From Aphanocapsa sp. GSE-SYN-MK-11-07L (GTDB lineage: Bacteria > Cyanobacteriota > Cyanobacteriia > Thermosynechococcales > Thermosynechococcaceae), in assembly GCA_019359715.1 (NCBI GenBank), contig JAHHGS010000116.1, positions 1 to 36,548 on the forward strand: DNA of 36,548 nt, in the 5' to 3' direction. Within the stretch, counting starts at the first letter, position 1. Every line of letters begins with the position of its first letter. This document shows positions 2,389 to 36,548 of the stretch, in pieces. The notes under the pieces are model-generated. The model did no database searches, was not told the DNA's origin, and saw nothing but the letters and a program-made list of their open reading frames with translations. The translations under genes and the position numbers were made by a program.

Positions 2389-3795
2389 ATGACTGCCTCA
2401 TTTAGCCAACTTGGCCTTTCAGATGCCCACGCTCAACATTTAGAGAGCTTAGGGTTTACTGAACCAACCCCGATTCAAATTCAAGCCATTCCACCCCTGC
2501 TGGCGGGGCGAGATGTGATTGGGCAAGCTCAAACCGGCACAGGTAAAACTGCTGCCTTTGGCTTGCCAATGCTAGAGCGGATTGATCCCCAATCCTTTGA
2601 TACTCAGGCTTTGATTCTTACACCTACCCGCGAACTAGCGGTGCAGGTGAGTCAGGCGATTTTCAACCTAAAATCTGACCCCAACATCCGAGTTTTAGCG
2701 ATTTATGGTGGTCAGCCGATTGAGCGGCAAATTGATCGGCTGAAGCGGGGCGTGCAAGTTTTGGTCGGCACGCCTGGGCGAGTCTTAGATTTAATTAAGC
2801 GGGGAGCGATGCCCCTCAGCACTCTCACCTGGTTCATCTTAGATGAAGCAGATGAAATGCTGAATATGGGCTTTATCCCTGATGTGAAGCAGATTTTGAC
2901 TCAGGTGCCGGCCCAGCGCCAAACCGCCTTTTTCTCGGCCACGATGGAGCCGGCCATTTATCGGTTGGCAAAACAGTTTTTGCAGTCGCCTGTCACCGTT
3001 AGCGTTGAGCAAAGCCAGGCTGCACCAACCAAAATTGAGCAAGTTGCCTACAAAATGCCGCGCGGTGCTTCTAAGCCCCGCACCCTGCAAATGATTTTGG
3101 AGCTGGAAGACCCAGAATCAGCCTTGATTTTTGTTCGGACTCGGCGAGCTGCGGCTGAACTGACGAACCTGCTTCAGTCGGAAGGCTACAGCGCTGATGA
3201 ATACCACGGCGACCTCAGTCAAAGCCAGCGAGAGCGATTAATTAATCGGTTCCGGCAAGGACAAATTCGCTGGGTAGTGGCGACAGATATTGCGGCGCGT
3301 GGCTTACACGTCGAAGACCTGACGCACGTGATTAACTATGACCTGCCGGATAGCCTGGAAAGCTACGTGCACCGGATTGGTCGGACGGGTCGAGCCGGTA
3401 AAACTGGGATTGCTGTTACTCTAATTCATCCCCTCGATCGCCATAAGCTGGGTCAAATTGAGCGGCACGTTCAGCAAAAGCTGACGCTGTTAGAAGCGCC
3501 TAGCCGGGCTCAAATTGAAGCCCGCCGCTTAGAGCGGATGAAAGACCAGGTAAAAGCCGCGCTGATGGGAGAACGGATGGCTTCTTTCTTGCCAATTGTT
3601 TCCCAGCTCAGTGAAGAGTATGACGTGCAAGCGATCGCTGCTGCTGCCCTCCAGATGGCCTTCGATCAAAACCGCCCTCTGCCTAACCAAACTGAAGCGA
3701 CTCCCACCCCTAGCGGAAACTCAGAGTCAGAACGCAGCCGCAAGCCAGTTCGTAATCTCAATCGGCAAAGAGATCGAGCAACCAACCAGCGTTAG
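2389..3795 (+). CDS. crhR: DEAD-box ATP-dependent RNA helicase, CrhR-like
   Basis: RNA helicase with every core motif: Q motif (TPIQIQ, about residue 27), Walker A AQTGTGKT (47-54), DEAD (152-155), SAT (183-185), ATDIAARG (about 298) and HRIGRTGR (328-335). After the core, the stretch GERMASFLP...LSEEYDVQAIAAAALQ matches the C-terminal extension of cyanobacterial CrhR, the redox- and cold-responsive helicase of Synechocystis, as I know that family. The tail (last 30 residues) is basic and low-complexity, suited to RNA contact. At 468 residues it is a little shorter than CrhR. AGGAG sits just before the ATG. The 236-base gap after rimO implies a long leader, consistent with the post-transcriptional control described for such helicases. 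Orthology to crhR rather than a paralogue is likely but unproven. Confidence 0.88.
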   Translation: MTASFSQLGLSDAHAQHLESLGFTEPTPIQIQAIPPLLAGRDVIGQAQTGTGKTAAFGLPMLERIDPQSFDTQALILTPTRELAVQVSQAIFNLKSDPNIRVLAIYGGQPIERQIDRLKRGVQVLVGTPGRVLDLIKRGAMPLSTLTWFILDEADEMLNMGFIPDVKQILTQVPAQRQTAFFSATMEPAIYRLAKQFLQSPVTVSVEQSQAAPTKIEQVAYKMPRGASKPRTLQMILELEDPESALIFVRTRRAAAELTNLLQSEGYSADEYHGDLSQSQRERLINRFRQGQIRWVVATDIAARGLHVEDLTHVINYDLPDSLESYVHRIGRTGRAGKTGIAVTLIHPLDRHKLGQIERHVQQKLTLLEAPSRAQIEARRLERMKDQVKAALMGERMASFLPIVSQLSEEYDVQAIAAAALQMAFDQNRPLPNQTEATPTPSGNSESERSRKPVRNLNRQRDRATNQR

Positions 3796-3831
3796 CACTC
3801 GGTTCTACGGTTTCCTGGGGTTTGACAACAG

Positions 3832-3868
3832 AAAATCTGGATGTTCTGACAGGAGCATCCAGATTTTT
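3832..3868 (+). terminator. Rho-independent terminator of the helicase gene
   Basis: Perfect 12-pair stem AAAATCTGGATG (3832-3843) and CATCCAGATTTT (3856-3867), with a 12-base loop. The T run is part of the 3' arm. It lies 36 bases after the helicase stop codon and separates that gene from the chemotaxis operon. Confidence 0.8.
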
Positions 3869-3964
3869 GTTGCAAGCGATTCAAAGCACGAAGCCGCTTT
3901 ACAGCAATTGTCTGCCAGCTAAAATTTGGTAAAGCTGAGATTTAGTATTCTGTAAATTATATGA

Positions 3965-3999
3965 GATAGTTCAAAATTATCTATTATCTGAAAACTATC
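3965..3999 (+). promoter_or_regulatory. Inverted repeat upstream of the chemotaxis operon
   Basis: GATAGTT (3965-3971) and AACTATC (3993-3999) form an inverted repeat with a 21-base spacer of AT-rich sequence, ending 36 bases before the first gene of the operon. It could be an operator or a leader hairpin. No regulator can be named. Confidence 0.3.
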
Positions 4000-4035
4000 A
4001 GAGATGGTTTGAGCAAATGGAGAATGGCTGGCTAA

Positions 4036-5277
4036 ATGCAGGGAGCATTAACAGAAATTGATATTAGCAGTATTTTTCAACTGCTGGCGTTGGGTCAACG
4101 TACAGGGACTCTCTACATTGAAGCGACCTCGAATTGGGCCTGGTTATTTTTTTTACATAATGGAGAAATTTATTACGCTCTCAACCTCAGCCATTCAGCC
4201 TTAACCCGGCTCCAAGATTACCTGCGATCTCATCAGCCTCAGATTGACTGGGAATCCCTCTCGGTAGAGCTTGAAGGCGTTGATGCAGAATATAGCTGTC
4301 TATGGTTACTGACCCAAAAGCAAATTCTCTTGCCTCAGAAGGCACGGTTCATCTTACAAAGTATGGTGCAAGAAACTTTGTTTGATGTGCTTAGTCTGTC
4401 TCAGGGGCATTTTTGGTTTGCTGCCGAGCAATCGATTACGCCCATCCTGGCAACCTACGATTCTGTTGCTTTGTCAAAAGATTTGTTAACCAAACTACAG
4501 GAGTGGAAGCGTTTTTTTCCCTACATTCGCTCTCCAGAGCAGTTCTTGCATATTCCCTACCCAGACCGGCTGCAAACGCTCCTGCCTGCTAAAGCCTTTC
4601 ATCGTTTGCAGGCTTGGGTGCAAGAGCATACTTCCATTCGCCGACTCGGACGAATTTTAAATAAGGATAGTCTGGCTGTAGCGAGGGCTATTTATCCCTA
4701 TGCTCAGCAAGGGCTAGTCAGGCTTTATGTTGCTGATGCTTCAGTCGGTAATTCAGTAATTTTAAATCACCAGGTTGCCAAAATTGTTTGGATTAGTGAG
4801 GCAATGTCAAGTCAAGAATTAGTTGAGGGTACGCTAAGGACAAGCGGTTATGAGGTGACGGCGATCGCCCATCCTCTGAGCGCTTTGAGCCTAATCTTTC
4901 AAATTAGTCCCAACTTTATTTTTTGTGACATCACTTTGTCCGAGCTAAATGGCTACGATGTTTGTGCAATGCTCCGCTCTACCTCTTTATTTCGTTACAC
5001 TCCAATTGTGTTGCTAACAACCGAAATTCATTGCGTTGATCGCTCCAGAGTCATTTCCTCCGGTGCGACAACTTGCCTCCGTCAGCCCTCAAGTGCAGCG
5101 GAGCTTCTGTCTTTAATTGGTCAATATGTTAACCTTGGTAGTTCTTTCGCCTCTAGTCAGCTTGACTATGGCAAGTGCTTAGAGCAGCAACCGCAGACAG
5201 TTGATCAGGTTGCAAATCGTCCAAGTGCTCTCCTCTCAAAAACTGAAGGCTATCCCATCGCAGGTATCTCTTTATGA
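4036..5277 (+). CDS. pilG: PATAN (DUF4388)-REC protein, PatA/PilG/HmpA type
   Basis: First gene of a chemotaxis-like operon. The N-terminal ~230 residues form a PATAN/DUF4388 module (MQGALTEIDISSIFQLLALG, then TGTLYIEA and HNGEIYYALN). Residues about 245-365 form a receiver fold. The receiver is degenerate: it keeps the acceptor-like Asp D298 (FCDIT), but the acidic pair is replaced by S254-E255 and the invariant Lys-Pro by R349-Q350-P351. Normal phosphorylation and Mg binding are therefore doubtful. In cyanobacteria such proteins open Tax/Pil/Hmp loci and are thought to act as output regulators beside a CheY. The gene overlaps the following cheY by four bases (ATGA). The PilG-like assignment rests on gene order; PixG is the main alternative, but the receptor here lacks GAF domains. 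Confidence 0.82.
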   Translation: MQGALTEIDISSIFQLLALGQRTGTLYIEATSNWAWLFFLHNGEIYYALNLSHSALTRLQDYLRSHQPQIDWESLSVELEGVDAEYSCLWLLTQKQILLPQKARFILQSMVQETLFDVLSLSQGHFWFAAEQSITPILATYDSVALSKDLLTKLQEWKRFFPYIRSPEQFLHIPYPDRLQTLLPAKAFHRLQAWVQEHTSIRRLGRILNKDSLAVARAIYPYAQQGLVRLYVADASVGNSVILNHQVAKIVWISEAMSSQELVEGTLRTSGYEVTAIAHPLSALSLIFQISPNFIFCDITLSELNGYDVCAMLRSTSLFRYTPIVLLTTEIHCVDRSRVISSGATTCLRQPSSAAELLSLIGQYVNLGSSFASSQLDYGKCLEQQPQTVDQVANRPSALLSKTEGYPIAGISL

Positions 5278-5639
5278 GCAAGGTTTTGGTTGTTGAAGAC
5301 AGCGCCCCTCAACGGGAAATGATCAGCGAGCTTTTGCAGAAAAGCGGCTTGACCGTTGATATCGCTAATGATGGCGTGGAGGCCCTAGAGCGAATCCAAA
5401 CGCTGCAGCCTGACATTGTAGTTTTAGATATTGTCATGCCTCGAATGAATGGTTACGAACTTTGTCGCCAGATCAAATCTGATCCACAAACCCAAGGGGT
5501 GCCGGTTGTGATTTGTTCGGCCAAGGGAGAAGACTTCGATCGCTATTGGGGCATGAAACAAGGGGCCGATGCGTATATCGCCAAGCCCTTCCAGCCGAAA
5601 GAACTGGTTGGAACCGTCAAGCAGCTACTCCGAGGTTAG
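5274..5639 (+). CDS. pilH: CheY-like single-domain response regulator (PilH/HmpB type)
   Basis: A stand-alone 121-residue receiver domain with an intact active site: acidic pair E8-D9, phosphoacceptor D52 (VVLDIVMPRMNG), S82 and K104 (AKPF). It is the likely phosphate acceptor from the CheA encoded at the end of the operon. No output domain is present, so it should signal through protein contact, as CheY/PilH proteins do in twitching motility. The start overlaps the previous stop (ATGA), implying translational coupling. The intact site contrasts with the degenerate receiver encoded just upstream. Confidence 0.9.
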   Translation: MSKVLVVEDSAPQREMISELLQKSGLTVDIANDGVEALERIQTLQPDIVVLDIVMPRMNGYELCRQIKSDPQTQGVPVVICSAKGEDFDRYWGMKQGADAYIAKPFQPKELVGTVKQLLRG

Positions 5640-5644
5640 TCACT

Positions 5645-6175
5645 ATGATCAGCAGTCCCGATTTTCTGACCGACGATCGTTCCGAGCCAGGGATTGGCTT
5701 TCAGAGCTTGGAAAGCCCGGAAGGCGATTTGCACCTCAAGTTCTATACCGCTTCCGGCACTGAATTAGCGCTGCCTGCCGTCGATGTGCGGGAAGTTGTT
5801 GCCCCTGCTCCCAGCCGGATTACGCCTGTCCCCAATTCGTCTCCCTTACTCTTAGGCATTCTCAACTTGCGGGGACAAGTGATTTGGGTGGCAGATATTG
5901 GTCAATTTCTCGGAGATAGCCCGCCACTTAACACCGACCGTTCCGAAATTTCCGTGATTGCGATCGAGCAAGATGAAGTCGTGGTCGGCTTGGCGGTTGA
6001 TCAGATTATTGGCATGGACTGGCTGAACCCAGACAAGCTAAGACTGTCTACGGATGCACCAGATAGCATGGCTCCCTACCTACAGGGAGAGTGGTTAATT
6101 GACCCGGAAACTAATCGGTGTTTACGGCTTCTTGATCCTGTAGCCATTTTACGTTCGGCCCGCTGGGCAGGATAG
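5645..6175 (+). CDS. pilI: CheW-like coupling protein (PilI/HmpC type)
   Basis: A CheW domain protein of 176 residues that should link the MCP to the CheA kinase. The core reads LPAVDVREVVAPAP, then ITPVPNSSPLLLGILNLRGQVIWVADIGQFLG and VVVGLAVDQIIGM, all typical CheW strands. The frame stays open upstream into cheY, but the real start is the ATG at 5645, five bases after the cheY stop, preceded by GAGG. The first 25 residues are a variable lead. It is co-transcribed with its neighbours. Confidence 0.88.
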   Translation: MISSPDFLTDDRSEPGIGFQSLESPEGDLHLKFYTASGTELALPAVDVREVVAPAPSRITPVPNSSPLLLGILNLRGQVIWVADIGQFLGDSPPLNTDRSEISVIAIEQDEVVVGLAVDQIIGMDWLNPDKLRLSTDAPDSMAPYLQGEWLIDPETNRCLRLLDPVAILRSARWAG

Positions 6176-6264
6176 ACAGACATTGCAGTTTAGATTACCC
6201 AGTTCAGACCCATTGGCAAGCTTAGAGAGCCTGTATTTAAGAGCATTTCGATAGGAGTACATTG

Positions 6265-9006
6265 ATGGCACCAAGTACCAAATATACCGAAGAATATCAG
6301 CAAGCCCTAAGCGCCTACATGAACGGTGGTTACGAAGAAGCGGCGGCAATTTCTGACCGTTTGGTTAAAAGCTATCCTGATGACCCAAATCTCCGCTTGC
6401 TGCGCGGACACATTCATTGCTATCAAAATCAGTATGAAACGGCTCGTGAACAGTACCAAATCGTGCTGAGCCTGACTTCTGATCCTGAATTAATTGACTG
6501 TGCGAACACCAGCTTGGATAATGCTAGCCAATATATGGCTGAACCTTCAGTGGCGCCGATTGCAGCAGAGCGCCTTAGCGAATGCAATCCTGACAAACCA
6601 GAAGATATTACCGCCTTTCAAGGAGGTGAAACCAGTTTTAATCTGACCGGATCGCGTGGAGCAGATTTAGAGCAGTTTACCTATATTCAGACCGATAACC
6701 TGACTGAAGATGCCACACCATTTGCTGACCCTTTTACCCAGAATCCTGTCAATCCCCCAAGTCCTATGATAGACCCCAAAGCTACCGCGTCCGAAGACCC
6801 CTTTTTCAATCAAGAAACCCCAGTTGAGCGGAATAGTAGCTTCTCTCTAGAAGACTTAGATGAGGAAGCGACTCTACTGATGCATGGTGGGCCCTCGATT
6901 AATGGTGCTCCAGCCGATGCCGCCGAGCTACGCAATCAAATTGACTCTAATGCCCCAGAGGATCAGCGATCGGCAGCAGAGGATGAATCTCTGTTTGATG
7001 ACTATTCAACTCCTGAACCGGCGTCGGCTGAGCCTAGTCTTGCCGATCTGAGCCTGGAAACCCAAAATCTTTGGCTATCTGAAGATGCACCCTCTGAGGA
7101 ATCTTTATTCGGCGATTATTTTAGTAGTGCCTCTACGCCTAGTGCAGGTGTACCTGCTCCAGAAGCAGAGAACTTTGATGTTGAGGAGATGGAGTTGCTA
7201 GATGAAGCAGACGATCTGACTCTATTCATGGGTGGACAAAGCACTGCATCGAGTTTAGGGGCTGAGAGAGGCACAGTCTCCCCACTTGAACAAGACACAT
7301 TTCAAGATCAAAATGTTGGCTTAGGTTCATCGAAAACCTTTGGGCTTAACAATACCAATTTTGGCTTCGCAGGTGATCTCGGTGATCCAGAAGACCTAGA
7401 CGATGACTTAGACATGGGCACGGAGCTATCGGGTTATGTGCCTAGCCCGCGTCAAGAGCCACCAGAACCAGTGGCGTTGTTAGACGATATTTCTGGGTCG
7501 TTGGCGGGTGTGCCTTCCTTAATTAGCGACGATCGCCGAGAGTCGTCCTCGACGGCAGCCCCCCTAGCAACTCTGCCGAGCGCTGAACTAGCCTCGCCTC
7601 CGGCAGCGGTAGTTCAGCCTTTTTCTCTAGCAAAAAGCAACTTGGTCAGCGCGATCGCAACCGGAGCCATTTCGGCCATTGTGGCTGGGGCTGTCTCTTT
7701 AGCGGTGGCCCAACCCAGGAGTAACCAAGGAGCGCTTTTAGCCGCCTTGGGAGCCGGCCTGGCCGGGGGTGGCACGACGTTTGTGATGGGGCAAAAAAAT
7801 CTGGCTCACATCAAGCGCTGCACCAATGATTTACAGAACCAGTTTGGCGCCGTTGCCCGAGGCGACCTGACTGCCAAAGCCACAGAATACTCTCAGGACG
7901 AATTTGGTCAGTTGGCCAGCGGCTTTAACAAAATGACCAGAGTGATCTACGCTGTCACTAGTGAGTCTCAGCAAAAAGCGGAAGAAAACGAAAAGTCAAA
8001 AGAAGACCTGCAACGGCAGGTGATTCGGCTGCTTGACGATGTGGAAGGCGCAGCCAGAGGCGATTTGACGGTGCAAGCTGAGGTGACGGCCGACGTGCTG
8101 GGCGCCGTGGCTGACTCGTTTAACCTGACGATTACTAACCTGCAAAAGATTGTCCAGCAGGTGAAAGTGGCGGCTCGCCAAGTCAATAGCGGTGCGGCAG
8201 AAAACGAAATCTTTGCCCGTAACCTCTCTTCAGATGCCCTGCGGCAAGCGGAAGAACTGGCGGTAACCCTAAACTCAGTCCAAATGATGACCAACGCGAT
8301 TCAGCGGGTGGCTGAGAGCGCCAAAGAAGCAAATGAAGTGGCTCGCTCGGCTTCTGCGATTGCTCTCAAGGGCGGAGATGCGGTGGAACAAACCGTGAAG
8401 GGAATTCTAGCTATTCGTGAAACGGTGGCAGAAACCACCCGCAAGGTGAAGCGGCTGGCCGAATCGTCCCAGGAGATTTCCAAAATTGTTGGTTTGATTT
8501 CGCAAATTGCCTCGCGGACGAATCTGTTAGCCCTCAACGCTAGTATTGAAGCAGCCCGCGCCGGTGAGTCTGGACGGGGGTTCGCGATCGTGGCGGACGA
8601 AGTGCGGCAGTTGGCGGACCGGGCGGCCAAGTCTTCGAAAGAAATTGAGCAAATCGTGCTGCAAATTCAAAGCGAAACTGGCTCTGTGATGACGGCGATG
8701 GAAGAAGGCACCCAACAGGTGATTGAGGGGACTAAACTAGCTGAACAAGCCAAGCGATCGCTGGAGGATATCATTCAAGTGTCAAGTCAAATCGATACCT
8801 TGGTGCGATCCATTACCACTGCCACAGTTGAACAGACTGAAACCGCCCGCTCGATGGCTCAGGTGATGCAATCGGTAGAATTAACTGCCCAATCCACCTC
8901 CCAAGAAGCCCAGCGCGTTTCTGATTCTCTGCAAAACCTAGTCACGGTTGCCCGCGACCTCCAAGGGTCGGTAGAGAAGTTCAAAGTTGACGGTGCAGAG
9001 GCTTAG
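6265..9006 (+). CDS. pilJ: Methyl-accepting chemotaxis protein with N-terminal TPR and long acidic linker (PilJ/HmpD type)
   Basis: Receptor of the operon, 913 residues from the ATG at 6265 (AGGAG 7 bases upstream; the in-frame TTG just before is less likely). Order: TPR-like helices (about 7-75, including [20 protein letters not shown]), a very acidic Ser/Asp/Glu-rich linker (about 90-445), two closely spaced hydrophobic segments (about 460-484 and 488-510), two HAMP-like regions (about 512-640) and an MCP signalling domain whose tip is near 745-790 ([23 protein letters not shown]). The membrane hairpin leaves almost no periplasmic domain, so input probably comes from the cytoplasm through the TPR and linker. 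No GAF domain is present, which argues against a PixJ-type photoreceptor. No CheR or CheB is encoded nearby. Confidence 0.87.
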
Positions 9007-19036: not shown

Positions 19037-19307
19037 TATGGCTGGGTTCGATCTCGCTCACTTTCAAGTGGTTACAGGCAATCTGACGGTGTAACAATGG
19101 CCCGGCTTGCGACTGGGCATAAACTTCCAAAATACCCTCTGAAACCGCCTCAAACAGCAAAGTTTGTCTTGGAAAAATCACCCGCTCGAAGTGCCAATCT
19201 GGCACATTGGTAATCCGGGCAACTTGAGTTTGCTGACTCGGATTTTGATAGCAACACAGAAATCTCTGCTGCTGCTCTGGGATTGGACAAGAGAAAGGTA
19301 GCATCAT
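19020..19307 (-). CDS. DUF1830 family protein in the nitrate operon
   Basis: A 95-residue protein whose core ([37 protein letters not shown]) matches the cyanobacterial DUF1830 family as I know it. The family has no assigned function. It begins with two adjacent ATG codons preceded by AAGG. It lies between nrtD and narB and overlaps narB by 17 bases, so it should be translated together with the nitrate reductase. The position suggests a role in nitrate assimilation or in regulating NarB, which is inference from context only. Rich in Cys and His near the ends, but no clear metal motif is present. Confidence 0.8.
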
Positions 19308-27421: not shown

Positions 27422-27493
27422 GCCCGTGTGGCTCAGTGGTAGAGCACACCCTTGGTAAGGGTGAGGTCACGAGTTCAATCCTCGTCACGGGCT
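27422..27493 (+). tRNA. tRNA-Thr (GGT)
   Basis: A 72-base tRNA 12 bases after tRNA-Tyr. Acceptor GCCCGTG pairs with CACGGGC. The anticodon arm is CACCC-TTGGTAA-GGGTG with GGT at 27454-27456, and the T loop is TTCAATC. CCA is not encoded. The accessory element with its integrase begins directly after this gene, so its 3' end is the probable attachment site. Confidence 0.95.
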
Positions 27494-27634: not shown

Positions 27635-28747
27635 ATGAAATGCACAATCGAAAACCATAATGGCAGGCTACGACTGCGCTGGCGCTCTCAAGAGGGCAAA
27701 CGCTACACGATGGGCTGTGGTGTGAATGATCATGCCAGCGGACGCGCGATCGCCAAACTGAAAGCGGCCCAGATTGAGAAAGACCTGCTCAATGACTACT
27801 TTGATCCGACCTTGCTCAAGTATCGACCGCGCATTCTGGGCAAGAATGCGACTGAAATCAGCGCTCCTGAACTGTTTGAGCGCTATGCAGTGGCGATGAA
27901 ACGTGAGAAGCGACTGACCCCCAATGCCTATCAGAAGTATAGGGCGACCCTTTCCCACCTGAAGCGGTTCTTTGGTGAGGTTAATGCCCTGTCCATTGGC
28001 TCTCGCCGTGCAGGTGACTTTACCGCCTATCTTTTGGAGCGAATGGCTGGGCAAACCGCAAAGCCCTACCTGTTCCTGCTGCGAGGCTGTTGGAATTGGG
28101 CGCAAGGGAAATACCACACGACTCCTGAGAACCCCTGGTCTGATGAAATCGCCAAAGTAAAACCCCAACCCCAGCAACGCACCAAGCCTTTTGCTAGGGC
28201 TGAAATTACCGCAATTCTGAACGGGTTCAAGAGCGATCGCCATTACAGCCACTATGCTGATGTGGTAGCTTTCCTATTTGGTACAGGATGTAGACCCGGT
28301 GAGGCGTTCGGGTTGCGATGGCGCAACGTTGCTGATGATTTTGGGACGGCTCAAATCTGTCAGACCGTTAGCCGTGGGCACCATCGCAACCAAACTAAAA
28401 CCGGGAAAAGCCGAACTATTATTTTTAATCCATCCATCCAGGCAATGCTGAAAACCCGCTATTTGCAGCAGCAGCCACAGCCCGATCGTTTGGTGTTTGC
28501 CAGCCCTACGGGTAAACCCATTGATGATAAACGGTTCAATCAAAGAGCCTGGAAAACGGTTCTTGAACGGTTAGGAATTGACTACAGAAGACCTAACACG
28601 ATGAGGCATTCAGCGATTAGTCATGCCCTAGCTAATGGTGTGAACCCCATCGACCTAGCAGAGCAGACCGGGCACGATAAACGAGTGCTGCTCTCAACCT
28701 ACGCTCATGCGATCAGCCAGCAGTCCCTGTTTGTGGAGTTTGAATGA
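27635..28747 (+). CDS. Tyrosine recombinase (integrase) of an integrative element
   Basis: Site-specific recombinase of 370 residues. The N-terminus (MKCTIENHNGRLRLRWRSQE) matches the DUF3596-type arm-binding domain of cyanobacterial and phage integrases. A SAM-like core-binding domain spans about 75-165. Catalytic residues are R220 (GTGCRPGEAFGLRW), probable K258, R324 in NTMR (Asn replaces the first His of HxxR), H347 (TGHDKR) and the nucleophile Y356 (STYAH). It lies 142 bases from tRNA-Thr, the usual position beside the attachment site. The following gene overlaps its stop codon, suggesting an operon. Confidence 0.92.
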   Translation: MKCTIENHNGRLRLRWRSQEGKRYTMGCGVNDHASGRAIAKLKAAQIEKDLLNDYFDPTLLKYRPRILGKNATEISAPELFERYAVAMKREKRLTPNAYQKYRATLSHLKRFFGEVNALSIGSRRAGDFTAYLLERMAGQTAKPYLFLLRGCWNWAQGKYHTTPENPWSDEIAKVKPQPQQRTKPFARAEITAILNGFKSDRHYSHYADVVAFLFGTGCRPGEAFGLRWRNVADDFGTAQICQTVSRGHHRNQTKTGKSRTIIFNPSIQAMLKTRYLQQQPQPDRLVFASPTGKPIDDKRFNQRAWKTVLERLGIDYRRPNTMRHSAISHALANGVNPIDLAEQTGHDKRVLLSTYAHAISQQSLFVEFE

Positions 28748-29613
28748 TGCCTATCTTGCAAAACAAATATTCCAAAATGCATGGATATGTAGCTGTCGTC
28801 CCATGGCCGCCATCTACAAAAGATGCTGAATGGGACAGGGTTCTTTCTCTTCTCTGTGCCCCACATTGTCTGATTGAAGGTGATTTATACGATCGCTCAC
28901 AATCCCTTAGTCTGCAAGGTTACGTTGCAATAGCGGTTCACTGGCTTTATCGAAAGGGCTGGAAATCAGGACATCGACTAACGGGGGGTTGCCCTGAACT
29001 TTGGCGAGGAATTGAACCGCTCGGAGATTTACTGCTAGTCATTCTGAAGGTTGCTGAAGCAGTCTTTAATAGCCAAGAAAAGGGCTTCCCGCAGTGCAAC
29101 CCGCCAGTTAGCCACCCGGCTCAGGTCTTCCTTCCCGCCGCTGTTCAGATGATGTTGATTGCCCTAGTGTCTCGTGAGGGAAAGTGTGGCAAAAGTGACC
29201 ACATCAAGGAATTAAGGGAACTGACTAGAATACTACGCAACAAGGCAAACCAGGATTCGGATGAAGAGCCGCAAAACCCATTTTCAAAACTGCACGAACC
29301 TGAGCTTTGGCAACTAATAGAAGCCGCTTGCTACATCAATCGAGAGATTGCTACACCAATCCCCTTTGACCTTTTGCTGCACGGTACGCCCAAGAAGAAA
29401 GGGCTGCTTTTCGCTCTAACCGGATGGATTGAACGGCTTGAAGTTAAAGGCAGCAATTGGCAAGTTGTGATCCGAGATCCTGACTATGTGGCACTAATTC
29501 GAGCTTTTGGAAGGGGCAACAGCCTTCGGCAGATTCCGATTATTGACCTAGAAACACTCGTTTCAAAAACACATTTTTTGAAACGCTCTCCTAGCAAGGG
29601 TTTTGGGCGGTAA
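28744..29613 (+). CDS. Hypothetical protein downstream of the integrase
   Basis: A 289-residue soluble protein I do not recognise. It starts at an ATGATG overlapping the integrase stop, with GGAG 5-8 bases before, so it is translationally coupled to the integrase. It has a hydrophobic/helical middle (LGDLLLVILKVAEAVF and VFLPAAVQMMLIALVS), a charged region (HIKELRELTRILRNKANQDSDEEPQN) and a Phe/Lys-rich C-terminal tail. No enzyme motif or clear HTH is visible. Coupling to the integrase suggests a role in recombination, element control or host benefit, but nothing in the sequence decides. Confidence 0.65.
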   Translation: MMPILQNKYSKMHGYVAVVPWPPSTKDAEWDRVLSLLCAPHCLIEGDLYDRSQSLSLQGYVAIAVHWLYRKGWKSGHRLTGGCPELWRGIEPLGDLLLVILKVAEAVFNSQEKGFPQCNPPVSHPAQVFLPAAVQMMLIALVSREGKCGKSDHIKELRELTRILRNKANQDSDEEPQNPFSKLHEPELWQLIEAACYINREIATPIPFDLLLHGTPKKKGLLFALTGWIERLEVKGSNWQVVIRDPDYVALIRAFGRGNSLRQIPIIDLETLVSKTHFLKRSPSKGFGR

Positions 29614-29779
29614 ATTGGAGCCAGAATTCAAGGTGGCTTTTGAGGGTTTAATGCCTCTTAAGCCCAAAAGTTTTGTTAACTCAAAGCCGATCGCTACTCG
29701 TTCCCCAACGCACCAGCGATCGGCTTACCCCAACCGACAAACTCGCAAATTTACAAATTTACCGGAGGTTTCCCCAATT

Positions 29780-30043
29780 ATGGCAAAGACGATCGCCCCC
29801 AAACAGCAATTCATGTTCGTTGGCTCCGCAGTTCTCGAAGCCCGGCTCGACCTACGCAAAACCCAGCGTGTTGAACTCCAAAAGCAATTGCCTTGTCCTC
29901 TCTACTGGTTTCAGTTTCCCGGCGGCCGCAAGGTTTTTTGGAACTGGGAATTAGTGCAGGATTACCTGATCAACGGCGACGGCCCCAACCATCAGCGATT
30001 GGTTGAGCAATATTTAGCAACCCTGCCCAATCCCGCCGCCTAA
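29780..30043 (+). CDS. Small winged-helix-like protein, possible excisionase
   Basis: An 87-residue protein starting at the ATG at 29780 (MAKTIAPKQQ), with GGAGG 11 bases upstream. The frame is open further upstream, but that part is low-complexity and has no signal. The middle LYWFQFPGGRKVFWNWELVQDYLI resembles the wing and recognition part of excisionase/MerR-like small DNA-binding proteins, in which a short basic hairpin precedes a tryptophan-containing helix. Position near the integrase fits a recombination directionality factor. The family assignment is inference and moderately weak. Confidence 0.6.
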   Translation: MAKTIAPKQQFMFVGSAVLEARLDLRKTQRVELQKQLPCPLYWFQFPGGRKVFWNWELVQDYLINGDGPNHQRLVEQYLATLPNPAA

Positions 30044-30124: not shown

Positions 30125-30331
30125 ATGAGTTTACCAAAAAATCACTGTCTCAAAACAGATACACCTCCACCCCTGACCCAGACACTCAATCGCCTCGAAA
30201 CGCTGTACGCGATTGCCCACTCTCCCCAGTGGTTGCTAGGCGCATTCAGCCGTGAGGCGGGCCATCTGGGCGTATCGCCCTCATTGGTCTGGCACCTTTG
30301 GCAAACCTACGAACAGTGGGGGCGGCGCTGA
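30125..30331 (+). CDS. Small hypothetical protein before the replication gene
   Basis: A 68-residue protein with AAGGA about 10 bases before the ATG. Residues about 28-64 (AHSPQWLLGAFSREAGHLGVSPSLVWHLWQTYEQWG) form two or three helices with the look of a small helix-turn-helix, but the match is not to a family I know. Its stop codon overlaps the start of the replication protein by one base (TGATG), so the two are coupled and it may be a replication accessory or regulator. Confidence 0.6.
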   Translation: MSLPKNHCLKTDTPPPLTQTLNRLETLYAIAHSPQWLLGAFSREAGHLGVSPSLVWHLWQTYEQWGRR

Positions 30332-32859
30332 TGGCGTACGATATTCGCTTATTCGAGGAACTACTGGACACCACCAGAGAGAAAAACCGCTACGTTTGCC
30401 CTGCCTGTGGCGATCCGAATCTCACGATCAGCCCCAAAACTGGGGCGTACCGTTGCCACGCCAACCTTTGCGATAGCGATGCGATTCGAGATGCGATCGA
30501 TAAATTGGCCGGTAAAATTCCCTACAAGACGAATGGCAGGCGTAGGAGAAAACTAGAGCCAGGAACCCTTGAGGCTAGAGTGATCACTCGCAAAGCAGCA
30601 GCGCTAGGGGCGTTTAACGGCCCAGAGGCTTGGATGCCTGACCGTGATGAGATTGCAGCCAAAGAACCTGAGCCAGAGCCAGAGAGTGCAGTGGAACCTG
30701 AGCCAGAGTGCTCTAGCCCGGTTCAGTCACCCTCAGATAGCGCTGTAGAGGGTGAGTCACAATCTCCCCACTATGAAACCAGTCCAGAGGGCGGGCTGTA
30801 CTGGGTTAGTCACGAAAAAACCAGCAATGGCAGTTTGACTAAGACCCAAACCAAGGTCGGAAATCACCTGGCAGCGATCGCCTACGTCGCTTCACCCGAT
30901 GGCGATGGAGCTGGCATTCTGCTAGAACTCAAGACCCAGCAAGTCCATCTCCAGCGCTGGACAATGCCCCGTCGAGCGCTGGGAGGTGATTCAGCAGTGC
31001 TGATCGGTGAATTGCTCGATCGCGGCTATGGTCTGGTGTTTGACCAGAAACGCAAATTGGCCCGCTACTTGACCGAGTTAGGCACTGAACTCAGCCAGAC
31101 CTACACCATCAGCAACGCCACTGGCTGGGTAAACGGTTCGTTTTTATTGCCTAACCTGACAATTGGCGATCAGTCTCTCAAATACCGCGATGTTGAACCG
31201 TTGCCCGACTGCCCTATTGAGTTAAAGGGCACAGCCCAGAGTTGGCAGGATACGGTTGGCAAACTCGCTAGTGGCAATAGCAGGCTGATTTTTGCGATCG
31301 GGGTTGCCCTGGGCGCTCCCCTAGCCCCGTTGCTGGACATTGAATCGGGTGGGTTCCACTACGTCGGATTAAGCTCCACTGGCAAAACGACTGCCCTGTG
31401 TGTTGCTGGTTCAGTGTCAGGGCTGAAAAAACTCTCATCTTGGAATAGCACAGTGAACGGCTTAGAGGCAGTGGCAACCGCTCATAATCATCTGCTACTG
31501 CCATTAGACGAGATTGGTGAGGCCAATCCCCGTGATGTGGGAGCTGCCGCCTACATGCTGGCCAATGGTCAGGGCAAACAGCGGATGAGCCGGGACTTGG
31601 TGGGGCGAAAGCGGCAGCAGTGGCAATTATTAACCCTTTCCAGTGGTGAGCTGAGCATGGCTGACTATCTCCGAACCGCTGGCATTAATCAGCGTGGCGG
31701 TCAGGAGGTGAGAATGCCCGATATTCCTGCCTGTCCCCATAACGGTCAGTATGGCGTTTTTGAGGAGATTCACGGGTACGCGACGGCGGCTGAGTTTGTC
31801 AGAGATCTAGAGGCAGCTTGCCGTGAGAATCGCGGCGCTCTGTTGCAAGCATTCCTGACTCAGCTAGTGGCGGATCAGGCTAACTCTGAGTGGTTGATTA
31901 GCCAGCGACGGCGATTACGGGCGATCGAAAACGAGCTGATGGGAGAGATTCAGGATGCGGTAATTGGTCGAGCTGCCAAACGATTTGCTTTAGTGCAGGT
32001 TGCTTTAGAGCTGGCCCACAGCTACGGGTTGCTCCCCTTTCCTTTAGATCAAATCCCCTGGGCAGTCTCAACCCTGTTCACTGATTGGCTGAATTTCAGA
32101 GGTGGAACTGGCTCAATTGAGGTTAAACAGTGTCTAGAGCGGATCGAGTCCGAGTTTGTTAAAAACGAGTTCAGCGATCGCATCTATAACGTTGACAAGC
32201 CGCCAACTGATTCTATTCGCAACTTGTTGGCCTACAGGAAGGTTGATTTCAGTAATCGGGCTGAGTTCTGGGTTCCACCGGCGGTTTTTAGAGAGTTGAC
32301 CCAGAGCGTTGACCGTGACCTAGTGACGGCTGAAATGTTGAGGCGGGGCTGGCTGCTGGGGCCAGATTCCGAGGGGAAAACCTCTACCGTGCGACGACTG
32401 GAAAATAAAACCATGCGAGTCTACGTTTTTACCCAATTTTGGCAAACCGAGGACGAGCCAACTCAAAAACCGTTTCCCCCTCTCTCTAAAACTGGTGTAA
32501 CGGGTGTAACAGGTGTAACGCCAACCCAGAACACAGGCATAGAGGGAATCTCAGCCGTTACACCATCTGTTACACCAGAAAATCCAGGGTGTAACGGTGT
32601 AACAGAACCAGGGTCAGAGAAAAATAATCAGGCATCAGCCATAGATGTAAACCTATCATCTGTTACACCTGTTACACCGGGGGATTTGAGGTGTAACACA
32701 AATACTGAGGCTCAAAACCCAGACACAGAGGCGGTTCCAGAAACCGTTACACCCGTTACACCTGTTACACCCAAAAACGAGAGAGAGGGAAATAGTTTTC
32801 AGGTTGGTGATTTCAAAACAGAAGATTTAGGGGAGGTGATCGATGTCGGGGATTTTTAA
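30331..32859 (+). CDS. DUF927-type replication protein: zinc ribbon plus P-loop helicase
   Basis: An 842-residue protein from the ATG at 30331 (the upstream frame from 30298 overlaps the previous gene). An N-terminal CHC2-like zinc ribbon has C23, C26, C42 and C47, as in phage and plasmid primases. An acidic Glu-Pro repeat linker (about 112-130) follows. The central region matches DUF927, a helicase-like family of mobile elements, with Walker A GLSSTGKTT (346-354) and Walker B LLPLDEIG (D393-E394). The last ~130 residues are low-complexity with GVTGVTGVT and VTPVTPVTP repeats, encoded by an iteron-like DNA array. No Toprim domain is obvious, so primase activity is inferred from the zinc ribbon only. 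It is the probable replication initiator/helicase of the element. Confidence 0.82.
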   Translation: MAYDIRLFEELLDTTREKNRYVCPACGDPNLTISPKTGAYRCHANLCDSDAIRDAIDKLAGKIPYKTNGRRRRKLEPGTLEARVITRKAAALGAFNGPEAWMPDRDEIAAKEPEPEPESAVEPEPECSSPVQSPSDSAVEGESQSPHYETSPEGGLYWVSHEKTSNGSLTKTQTKVGNHLAAIAYVASPDGDGAGILLELKTQQVHLQRWTMPRRALGGDSAVLIGELLDRGYGLVFDQKRKLARYLTELGTELSQTYTISNATGWVNGSFLLPNLTIGDQSLKYRDVEPLPDCPIELKGTAQSWQDTVGKLASGNSRLIFAIGVALGAPLAPLLDIESGGFHYVGLSSTGKTTALCVAGSVSGLKKLSSWNSTVNGLEAVATAHNHLLLPLDEIGEANPRDVGAAAYMLANGQGKQRMSRDLVGRKRQQWQLLTLSSGELSMADYLRTAGINQRGGQEVRMPDIPACPHNGQYGVFEEIHGYATAAEFVRDLEAACRENRGALLQAFLTQLVADQANSEWLISQRRRLRAIENELMGEIQDAVIGRAAKRFALVQVALELAHSYGLLPFPLDQIPWAVSTLFTDWLNFRGGTGSIEVKQCLERIESEFVKNEFSDRIYNVDKPPTDSIRNLLAYRKVDFSNRAEFWVPPAVFRELTQSVDRDLVTAEMLRRGWLLGPDSEGKTSTVRRLENKTMRVYVFTQFWQTEDEPTQKPFPPLSKTGVTGVTGVTPTQNTGIEGISAVTPSVTPENPGCNGVTEPGSEKNNQASAIDVNLSSVTPVTPGDLRCNTNTEAQNPDTEAVPETVTPVTPVTPKNEREGNSFQVGDFKTEDLGEVIDVGDF
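32494..32771. repeat. Array of 13 exact GGTGTAAC octamers in both orientations (iteron-like)
   Basis: GGTGTAAC is at 32494, 32503, 32512, 32588, 32596 and 32690. Its complement GTTACACC is at 32557, 32569, 32662, 32671, 32746, 32755 and 32764 (first bases). Eleven copies lie in one reading frame (Gly-Val-Thr or Val-Thr-Pro), while those at 32588 and 32690 are shifted and encode Cys-Asn. Copies come in twos and threes spaced 8, 9 or 12 bases. The stretch 32604-32661 between clusters is AT-richer. Confidence 0.85.
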
Positions 32860-33178
32860 TGCGATCGCGATTGGTAAATCCGGCACTGCCTACCCTGTGG
32901 CGAGGGTTGAGGGCAACCGATTGGTTCTAGCTACTCCTAAAGGGGCGATTAGGGTTCCTCGCAGTGCGATCGCACGGCTAGAGATTCCAGCATCACCTCA
33001 CCATTGGATGCCTGTGCCGGGTCAGCGAGTGGCAGAACTTGAAACGAGCCAAAGCGCGACCGTTAATCGCATTGACCCCGATGGCAGTATCGTTTTGTAT
33101 GCAACTCAGTCCCAGGATGCGATCGCTGGCAGATTTTATGCCTCCGAACTGCGGCCAGCAGTGGAGGATGCACCATGA
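32843..33178 (+). CDS. Small beta-rich hypothetical protein
   Basis: A 111-residue protein overlapping the end of the replication gene by 17 bases, with GGAGG 6-7 bases before the ATG. Alternating hydrophobic residues (YPVARVEGNRLVLATPKGAIRVP and VNRIDPDGSIVLYATQ) suggest two small beta-barrel or Tudor/SH3-like units, which are common in DNA-associated phage proteins. No family is recognised. Its position and coupling suggest a replication-linked accessory role. Confidence 0.65.
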   Translation: MSGIFNAIAIGKSGTAYPVARVEGNRLVLATPKGAIRVPRSAIARLEIPASPHHWMPVPGQRVAELETSQSATVNRIDPDGSIVLYATQSQDAIAGRFYASELRPAVEDAP

Positions 33179-34446: not shown

Positions 34447-34920
34447 ATGAGTAGACCTGGCAGACCCACTAAGTTAACCCCCCAAGTGCAGCAGAAAATC
34501 CTAGATGCAATCCAAAATGGAATGCACTTGGAAACCGCTTGTGAACTTGCCGGAATCGACTACTCGACGTTCCGAAGATGGATGCAAAAAGGCGCTGAAA
34601 GTCATCCTGCATCGAGTCCAAAGCGTGAATTTAGCGATTTTTGCGAGGATGTTACGCGCGCGATCGCGAAGAGTGAAGCTGCTCTGCTGGGCAAAATCCA
34701 AAGCAGTCCCGATTGGAGAGCGCAGGGCTGGATCTTAGAGCGGCGCTTCCCTGAGCGCTGGGCAAATAGTCATCGGGTGCAAATCCTGCTGCAAAGGGAG
34801 ATGGAAGCGATTCTCGACCAACTGGAACGAACGATGCCCAAGCAGGAGTACGCTAGCCTGTTCTACTACATCTCTGCCTTGGAGCAGACCGTTATTATCG
34901 AAAACGGCGCGAAACGATAA
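34447..34920 (+). CDS. Phage HTH protein, terminase small-subunit-like
   Basis: A 157-residue protein beginning with the GRPTKLTPQVQQKILDAIQNG motif, then ETACELAGIDYSTFRRWMQKG, a helix-turn-helix of the type found in phage terminase small subunits and related packaging or regulatory proteins. FSDFCEDVTRAIAKSEAALLGKIQ and WILERRFPERWA continue this family pattern. The C-terminal helices are unlike the standard. It sits directly before a second, more typical small terminase, so it could be a paralogous DNA-binding protein that redirects packaging or regulates late genes. Confidence 0.75.
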   Translation: MSRPGRPTKLTPQVQQKILDAIQNGMHLETACELAGIDYSTFRRWMQKGAESHPASSPKREFSDFCEDVTRAIAKSEAALLGKIQSSPDWRAQGWILERRFPERWANSHRVQILLQREMEAILDQLERTMPKQEYASLFYYISALEQTVIIENGAKR

Positions 34921-34927
34921 TAAGAAG

Positions 34928-35476
34928 ATGATGAACGCTAAACAACTGAGGTTTTGCCAAGAATACATGATCGATTTCAATGGCACTCAAGCGGCGATCC
35001 GGGCTGGGTATAGCAAGAAGACAGCTAGATTTATCGCAACTGAGAACCTAACAAAACCCAACATTCAAGCCAAAATCGCCGAGTTGGTTAGGATTCAAGC
35101 CGATAGGTTGGAAATTACCTCTGAGGCAGTCATGCAGGAATTAGCGGCGATCGCATTCTCCAGGATTGATGACGTGCTGACAGTAGAGGGCGGCCAGGTG
35201 ATCATTAAGCCCTCATCCCAGTGGTCGCCATCTGCAAGAGTAGCGATTCAAAACATCAAGCAGACCCAACATGGAATCAGCATCACGATGCATAGCAAAG
35301 TCGCAGCCTTAGAAAAGCTGATGATGCGCTTTGGGTTGAACCAGCCCGACCCAGATATCCCGACTGGAGCAGAGTTTGAGCTAGTATTGCCAACCGTGGT
35401 GAATATTGGAGTTGCCGATATGCGATCGCCAGAGATTGAAGCCGAGCTAGGGGAAAATGGGTGGCGGCTCAATTAG
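34928..35476 (+). CDS. Terminase small subunit (Terminase_2 family)
   Basis: A 182-residue phage DNA-packaging protein. The N-terminal MNAKQLRFCQEYMIDFNGTQ, then AAIRAGYSKKTARFIATENLTKPNIQAKI, is the classic DNA-binding domain of the Terminase_2 small subunit, which recognises the packaging site. Residues 50-150 (RLEITSEAVMQELAAIAFSRIDDVL) fit the oligomerisation domain. Two adjacent ATGs occur; the second (34931) is equally possible. In a phage the large terminase normally follows, but here the strand ends in two palindromes and convergent genes, with no large subunit in the window. Confidence 0.85.
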   Translation: MMNAKQLRFCQEYMIDFNGTQAAIRAGYSKKTARFIATENLTKPNIQAKIAELVRIQADRLEITSEAVMQELAAIAFSRIDDVLTVEGGQVIIKPSSQWSPSARVAIQNIKQTQHGISITMHSKVAALEKLMMRFGLNQPDPDIPTGAEFELVLPTVVNIGVADMRSPEIEAELGENGWRLN

Positions 35477-36423: not shown

Positions 36424-36548
36424 TGACCTTGCCCCGAAAAAGTGGACAATTCCCAAGAGTCGTCAACTCAGGAGAAAGTTCACATGACACAAAAACCCCG
36501 CAGGCTATTTACAGACGAGCAGAAAGCGGAGGCCGTCCGCATCGTCAA
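36424..36548 (+). mobile_element. Left end of an IS3-family insertion sequence (cut by the window)
   Basis: The terminus TGACCTTGCCCCGAAAAAG begins with TG and resembles IS3-family inverted repeats. A transposase OrfA reading frame starts 60 bases inside it. The right end and target duplication are beyond the window. Confidence 0.75.
36484..36548 (+). CDS. IS3-family transposase OrfA, partial (5' end only)
   Basis: The first 21 codons (MTQKPRRLFTDEQKAEAVRI) match the start of the OrfA helix-turn-helix of IS3-family transposases. AGGAG precedes the ATG by 9 bases. OrfA binds the IS ends and is normally joined to the DDE transposase OrfB by -1 frameshifting. The gene is truncated only because the window ends. 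Confidence 0.8.
   Translation, partial: MTQKPRRLFTDEQKAEAVRIV

Follow-up and report, generated by a model that had tools for sequence, protein, structure and literature searches.

A mirrored iteron array within the coding sequence of a cyanobacterial DUF927 rep gene, the probable origin or Rep-binding element of an integrated PICI/SaPI-like satellite

In the 36,548-nucleotide contig of Aphanocapsa sp. GSE-SYN-MK-11-07L analysed here, the whole of which we refer to as the window, a gene for a replication protein ends in a dense run of short repeats, and this locus raises the question of whether the repeats are kept for the peptide they encode or for the DNA itself and, if for the DNA, what that DNA does. 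The original prediction had described 13 exact octamers at positions 32494-32771 and interpreted them as an array of the kind bound by an initiator. A scan of the window recovered the same 13 copies, six reading GGTGTAAC and seven reading GTTACACC, all within the open frame 30331-32859. Outside the array the octamer occurs once in the window, at 19088 in host DNA, and dinucleotide shuffles of the entire window (n = 100) contained a mean of 0.42 copies and a maximum of 3. A search of the whole genome for further clusters, which that prediction had proposed, found 86 copies in 5.1 Mb (159 contigs) and no second cluster there or elsewhere in the mobile element described below, leaving the array as the sole one. 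The sites found by the octamer scan, and the spacer between them, are:

32494 to 32501, + strand: iteron L1, left outer triplet
32503 to 32510, + strand: iteron L2, left outer triplet
32512 to 32519, + strand: iteron L3, left outer triplet
32557 to 32564, - strand: additional iteron, alone in lacking a mirror counterpart (symmetry test)
32569 to 32576, - strand: iteron L4, left inverted single
32588 to 32595, + strand: iteron L5, left inner pair, codon phase 1 (Cys-Asn)
32596 to 32603, + strand: iteron L6, left inner pair
32604 to 32661, no strand: central dyad spacer, candidate melting region (A+T content)
32662 to 32669, - strand: iteron R6, right inner pair
32671 to 32678, - strand: iteron R5, right inner pair
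32690 to 32697, + strand: iteron R4, right inverted single, codon phase 1 (Cys-Asn)
32746 to 32753, - strand: iteron R3, right outer triplet
32755 to 32762, - strand: iteron R2, right outer triplet
32764 to 32771, - strand: iteron R1, right outer triplet

Recomputing the codon phases gave the result first reported, with 11 of the 13 octamers in phase 0, encoding Gly-Val-Thr or Val-Thr-Pro, and the copies at 32588 and 32690 in phase 1, encoding Cys-Asn. Third codon positions inside the octamer were identical in all 11 in-phase copies (GGT GTA, GTT ACA), an outcome with a chance of 1.4e-9 for any identical third-position choice under the codon usage of the window, whereas the third base of the Pro codon directly outside the octamer varied (A, A, T, G, C, T, C). 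Since the octamers occupy both strands and two reading phases, and since third positions are invariant within the octamers but not beside them, selection on the peptide was rejected, and these data support selection acting on the array as DNA. A tail selected as a Val-Thr-Pro linker, with the DNA repeats as its by-product, would account for the single phase of 11 of the 13 copies, and peptides of this sort do occur: viral contigs scanned for the spaced iteron pair yielded same-strand coding repeats as well as mixed-strand arrays, and contigs such as L155, L163 and L210 carry Val-Thr-rich coding repeats on one strand with multiple-of-three spacing. Same-strand GTTACACC repeats at multiples of three were seen on these three contigs and on L256; all four are probable Val-Thr coding repeats and serve as a negative control. 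Five of the mixed-strand viral arrays sit 10-40 nt 3' of a DUF927 gene, four of the five with a recognisable Cch helix-turn-helix domain, and in L174 a mixed-strand array follows an integrase gene.

A homologue that kept Val-Thr while the octamer drifted was named at the outset as evidence that would favour the peptide. In the L003 locus a neighbouring ORF does retain Val-Thr, with GTT in place of GTA; however, its five copies all read GGTGTTAC and lie in the next ORF, so that the expected pattern was seen only in part. Because all five copies changed together, we regard GGTGTTAC as a new iteron rather than as drift. Taken with the layout and the relatives described below, we consider a peptide repeat extremely improbable.

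The gene in which the array lies has the following parts:

30331 to 32859, + strand: rep, DUF927 (PF06048, E 5.5e-56) self-loading helicase/initiator, 842 aa
30751 to 32452, + strand: conserved structured core, residues ~141-707 (pLDDT ~90; 5DGK Z 29.3, 8TCH Z 29.2)
32449 to 32856, + strand: C-terminal tail with the array, residues 707-842, predicted disordered
32843 to 33178, + strand: small ORF, 111 aa, overlapping the rep stop codon (ORF list)

The rep open frame begins upstream, at TTG 30298, the first ATG being that at 30331; the small ORF 32843-33178 had no Pfam or PHROG match. Searching for relatives of the window Rep found none above 45% identity, and viral contigs scanned with the window protein alone gave no match. 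Searched against the PDB, a profile of 44 relatives matched SaPIbov1 Rep (8TCH) with E 1e-41 and SCCmec Cch (5DGK) with E 3e-30, and an AlphaFold2 model built on the alignment of this profile matched both structures with Z ~29 over model residues 6-568, the next best matches, MCM helicases, reaching ~14. The SaPI-type Rep first proposed was thereby confirmed and refined to the SaPIbov1/Cch (DUF927) type. The region aligned with 8TCH and 5DGK reaches model residue 568 and so takes in the C-terminal DNA-binding domain; in the model, the core closes with a predicted small alpha/beta domain that superposes on the C-terminal, DNA-binding portion of SaPIbov1 Rep and Cch. The Cch helix-turn-helix domain, HTH_56, was matched in 4 of the 44 relatives and was not found in the window Rep itself. 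The model is confident up to residue 566, and the tail beyond (model residues 567-702) has pLDDT < 50, in keeping with the disorder predicted for it from the outset. This tail of about 130 residues is absent from nearly all homologues, in which the core ends close to the stop codon. Since the core match runs through the C-terminal DNA-binding domain and predicted disorder follows, the array starts right after this domain and encodes the tail only.

Similar arrays accompany most DUF927 rep genes. Loci drawn from genomes, IMG/VR, phages and plasmids were de-duplicated to 47, and an array was scored as at least 5 copies of one 7-mer within 350 bp at the rep 3' end. Arrays of 5-13 copies were found there in 33 of the 47 loci, a density reached by 0.1% of shuffles and by 14 of 338 other windows in the same loci; the other 14 loci had no array at this threshold. 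The search made the other way round, from the iteron pair to the gene, agrees with this placement. The iteron word is specific to the locus (GGTGTAAC, GGGGACA, GGGAACA, GGTACC and others) and nearly constant inside each one. In almost all array-bearing loci the protein stops near the core and the array lies past the stop codon, the window being the exception. Because most relatives' arrays follow the stop codon, burial in coding sequence is the unusual part of the window locus and the array itself is not; that such arrays are non-coding in most relatives also counts against a repeat selected as peptide. Across the 33 loci, similarity of the iterons did not covary with similarity of the Rep C-terminal domains (Spearman 0.05, Mantel p 0.23), probably because this set is too divergent. 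A different kind of repeat was seen in L006 (2067-2964, genome G048), where seven copies of the 22-nt repeat TGTCACTCGATCCTAGAGGTTT lie near a Zn-ribbon match, five of the seven within longer units ~180-215 bp apart.

The sites of the window array are arranged symmetrically. Twelve of the 13 form a mirror-image dyad, as symmetric an arrangement appearing in 0 of 300 shuffles, with two six-site modules, +++ - ++ on the left and -- + --- on the right, on either side of a central spacer that is ~60% A+T compared with 50% in the 350 bp upstream and 46% downstream. Two mirrored iteron sets flanking an A+T-richer spacer, a feature of PICI/SaPI origins, are thus present in the window. Together with the recurrence of like arrays at the rep 3' end, this dyad points to an array of the initiator type, as first suggested, and the mirror-symmetric layout is a further argument against the linker peptide. 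The same plan is usual among the other arrays: three sites at a spacing of 9, then one inverted site 30-57 bp off and a pair ~21 bp beyond, followed by the mirror image of the whole. Mirror symmetry had p < 0.05 in 14 of 23 arrays, neighbouring runs 26-62 bp apart were in opposite rather than the same orientation by 49 to 5, and the array of L011 has all 12 of its 12 sites mirrored. The A+T content of the non-iteron DNA in arrays exceeds that of the flanks. Gaps between triplet and single cluster at 29-36, 41-47 and 54-59, with a best period of 11-11.7 (p 0.004 overall and 0.03 with one per locus, for bins seen before testing), which is suggestive only of helical quantisation. No consistent switch of GC skew at the array was seen across complete circular plasmids.

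Some elements have the two modules in swapped order, as in L120. In L266 they are separated in a P4-like manner, a CGGGACC half-module (+++ 55 - 23 ++) lying upstream of rep at 4180-4289 and its mirror half-module 3' of rep at 8568-8675, 4.3 kb from the first. Since a similar cluster in P4, crr, is a required cis element and not the start site, the window array might likewise be an accessory, crr-like element, or a copy-number or autorepression site bound by Rep, with strand opening elsewhere. P4, with iterons at ori1 and again at crr next to the alpha gene, and L266, with one half-module upstream and the other 3' of rep, would agree with such a role. However, the element in the window is without any other octamer cluster, its array holds both half-modules and the A+T-richer spacer, and a PICI rep-ori segment with the origin at the rep 3' end replicates alone (PMC6092414). 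We therefore regard an accessory or regulatory role as unlikely, and an origin as the better account of the array.

The same genome carries two more Rep genes with mixed-strand arrays at the 3' end, both of the DUF3987 family (contigs C149 and C44). On C149 (L264), a DUF3987 rep gene at 5451-7685 contains a mixed-strand AGTGACC/GGTCACT array at 7254-7454, inside the frame. The N-terminal 126 residues of this Rep share 73% identity with the window Rep, and since this is so despite helicase domains of different families, the sequences suggest domain swapping. On C44 (L302), a GTCACCA array with the polarity -----++++ occupies 3712-4059; the DUF3987 gene whose 3' end it marks is interrupted by stop codons, and L293 and L298 carry almost the same array in intact form.

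Of 23 distinct DUF3987 loci sampled from cyanobacteria, 18 had an array, 12 of the 18 wholly within the ORF and 5 straddling the stop codon, and none was seen in the first 60% of the genes. Intragenic arrays use two to three codon phases, and are on both strands wherever every copy is in the ORF. By comparison, about one in ten comparable arrays in a sample around a Nitrosomonas genome, which was sorted by eye, was wholly inside (Fisher p 0.006 versus the cyanobacterial sample). In most intragenic cases coding continues for ~190-250 nt past the array, often from a GDxVRYxG-like motif. A short domain starting at GDxVRYxG after the array-encoded linker was seen in L269, L278, L282, L284, L293 and others; this segment may be a small SH3-like domain, and its counterpart in the window may be the separate small ORF 32843-33178.

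As the window gene has no near relative beyond 45% identity, the direct drift test was made on these sister DUF3987 arrays. A comparison of L293, L298 and C44 gave 91-96% identity at the sites against 60% in the intervening DNA, and L298 retains its array although the frame ends early. The comparison of homologues put forward with the original prediction, carried out here on the sister family, thus gave conserved sites in drifting DNA even across a frame break; with the frozen synonymous sites, the two phases and the use of both strands, this bears out the claim that selection acts on the DNA, and is difficult to reconcile with selection for the peptide. Partition (parS-like) systems and transcriptional operators can likewise consist of short clustered sites in mixed orientation, and the window array might be one of these, unrelated to replication. 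No partition gene was recognised beside the window array, most small ORFs there being without a family match, and the arrays are constantly at the 3' ends of Rep helicase genes of different families, so that we give a partition or operator function a minimal probability relative to one in replication.

The rep gene lies within what appears to be an integrated mobile element, with these further features:

27443 to 27492, + strand: left attachment site, 3' part of tRNA-Thr (repeat on contig C105)
27635 to 28747, + strand: tyrosine integrase beside tRNA-Thr (PF00589, E 6.7e-20; phrog_1)
34447 to 34920, + strand: terminase-small-subunit-like gene (phrog_4102, E 7.7e-33)
34928 to 35476, + strand: second terminase-small-subunit gene, Terminase_2 (PF03592, E 3.5e-38)

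About 50 bp of the 3' part of tRNA-Thr recurs on contig C105 with a single mismatch, and ARAGORN found no tRNA there; this right site gives an element length of ~10 kb. Inverted terminal repeats CCCCGAAAAAGTGGACA and TGTCCACTTTTTCGGGG with a transposase start were observed in the window at 36430-36548 and at the end of contig C105. These look like an IS3-type insertion sequence in the element, whose inverted ends (CCCCGAAAAAGTGGACA) on the facing contig ends explain the break between C116 and C105. The frequent GCGATCGC words, and the groups to which its relatives belong, point to a cyanobacterial host.

The order of genes is integrase, ORFs without an assigned family (28744-29613 and 29603-30043, which were examined for an AlpA- or Rpr-type regulator and had no confident match in Pfam or PHROG), rep with its array, small ORFs, and two different terminase-small-subunit-like genes in tandem, an order that, on gene content, is PICI-like. 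A terminase small subunit gene is found in some PICIs and not in others. Small terminases bind repeated sites near their own genes, and with the two TerS-like genes ~2 kb downstream the array could be a packaging (pac/cos-like) site for the element's own terminase small subunit. Arrays track the DUF927 gene, however, and, for example, in complete Legionella (L139) and Skermanella (L136) plasmids an array lies beside rep with no annotated terminase, which makes a packaging site very unlikely.

Considering these lines of evidence together, the array is very probably the replication origin, or at least a Rep-binding cis element, of an integrated ~10-kb PICI/SaPI-like satellite at tRNA-Thr. Weighing against this are the lack of covariation between iterons and Rep C-terminal domains, the 14 loci with no array at the threshold used, the inconsistent GC skew and the crr precedent of P4. 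We infer that the octamers would be recognised by the C-terminal DNA-binding domain of the element's DUF927 Rep, and that the six left sites (+++ - ++) and six mirrored right sites (-- + ---) would seat two opposed Rep hexamers around the A+T-richer spacer, a stoichiometry that would suit two mirrored modules of six sites each. The seated hexamers would then melt the spacer and load for bidirectional unwinding. In this element and in many of its cyanobacterial relatives, rep stays open through the putative origin, so that the iterons double as coding sequence for a disordered tail of low complexity (GVT/VTP).

One possible joint reading, which we offer tentatively, is that cyanobacterial mobile-element Rep helicases of several kinds (DUF927, DUF3987) carry origins inside rep, the iteron array encoding a disordered linker; that a six-site module of fixed polarity and spacing seats one hexamer; and that two mirrored modules make an origin, whether close together as in the window or kilobases apart as in P4 and L266. 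If so, an origin lying within rep could not easily be parted from its initiator, and its firing could be coupled to rep transcription. The locus itself extends the PICI/SaPI replicon type to an apparent cyanobacterial satellite. It also provides a simple signature, mirrored +++ - ++ modules where a Rep helicase gene ends, for finding the origins of satellites and small plasmids, and the conserved six-site module makes the loading of SaPI-type Rep as two opposed hexamers directly testable. Intragenic arrays are also a clear example from nature of a single DNA segment carrying two codes, in which the origin shapes a protein tail. In the mainly openly accessible literature we found no account of DUF927/DUF3987 origins buried in coding sequence, or of the module rule, although the layout rule may be partly known already.

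Of the characterised systems, the closest are the origins of SaPIbov1-type and Gram-negative PICIs, which share with the window a DUF927-type Rep with the SaPIbov1 Rep fold and iterons at the rep 3' end. PICI origins at the rep 3' end have two iteron sets around an A+T-rich region, and one of them replicates a plasmid (PMC6092414); SaPI Rep binds its iterons via the C-terminal domain, apparently as two hexamers (PMC7581432). As in PICIs, integrase and terminase small subunit lie within one element, with the integrase at a specific attachment site. The window differs in that its array is inside the rep frame, ~88 nt before the stop, rather than after rep, and in its iteron (GGTGTAAC) and apparently cyanobacterial host. 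SCCmec Cch shares the helicase fold of the window Rep (5DGK). Cch2 binds iterons immediately 3' of its own gene (PMC7581432), but belongs to another helicase family, and its array consists of three short direct repeats outside the gene.

The alpha protein of P4 has been described as only a distant relative of PICI Pri-Rep (PMC6092414). Its type I iterons are TGTTCACC, whose octamer form GGTGAACA is related to the window octamer, and in both the sites are spaced ~9. The ori1 annotated for P4 (X51522) is built as one such module of six sites, with a triplet, an inverted single about 21-22 bp away and a pair about 43 bp further on; the crr repeats have five sites each, and crr adjoins the alpha gene (X51522). 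Unlike P4, in which the modules are split between ori1 and crr, the window has both half-modules in one intragenic dyad. Replication of P4 or SaPI type had been proposed for this locus, and the SaPI side of that proposal holds, given a DUF927 Rep with a 3' array, while the ori1/crr split of P4 has no counterpart in a single cluster. Iterons within the coding sequence of their initiator have a precedent in lambda, whose origin lies inside gene O and is bound by O (PMC5043065); there, four ~19-bp repeats are bound by dimers of a non-helicase initiator, whereas the window carries 13 octamers in the tail of a self-loading helicase.
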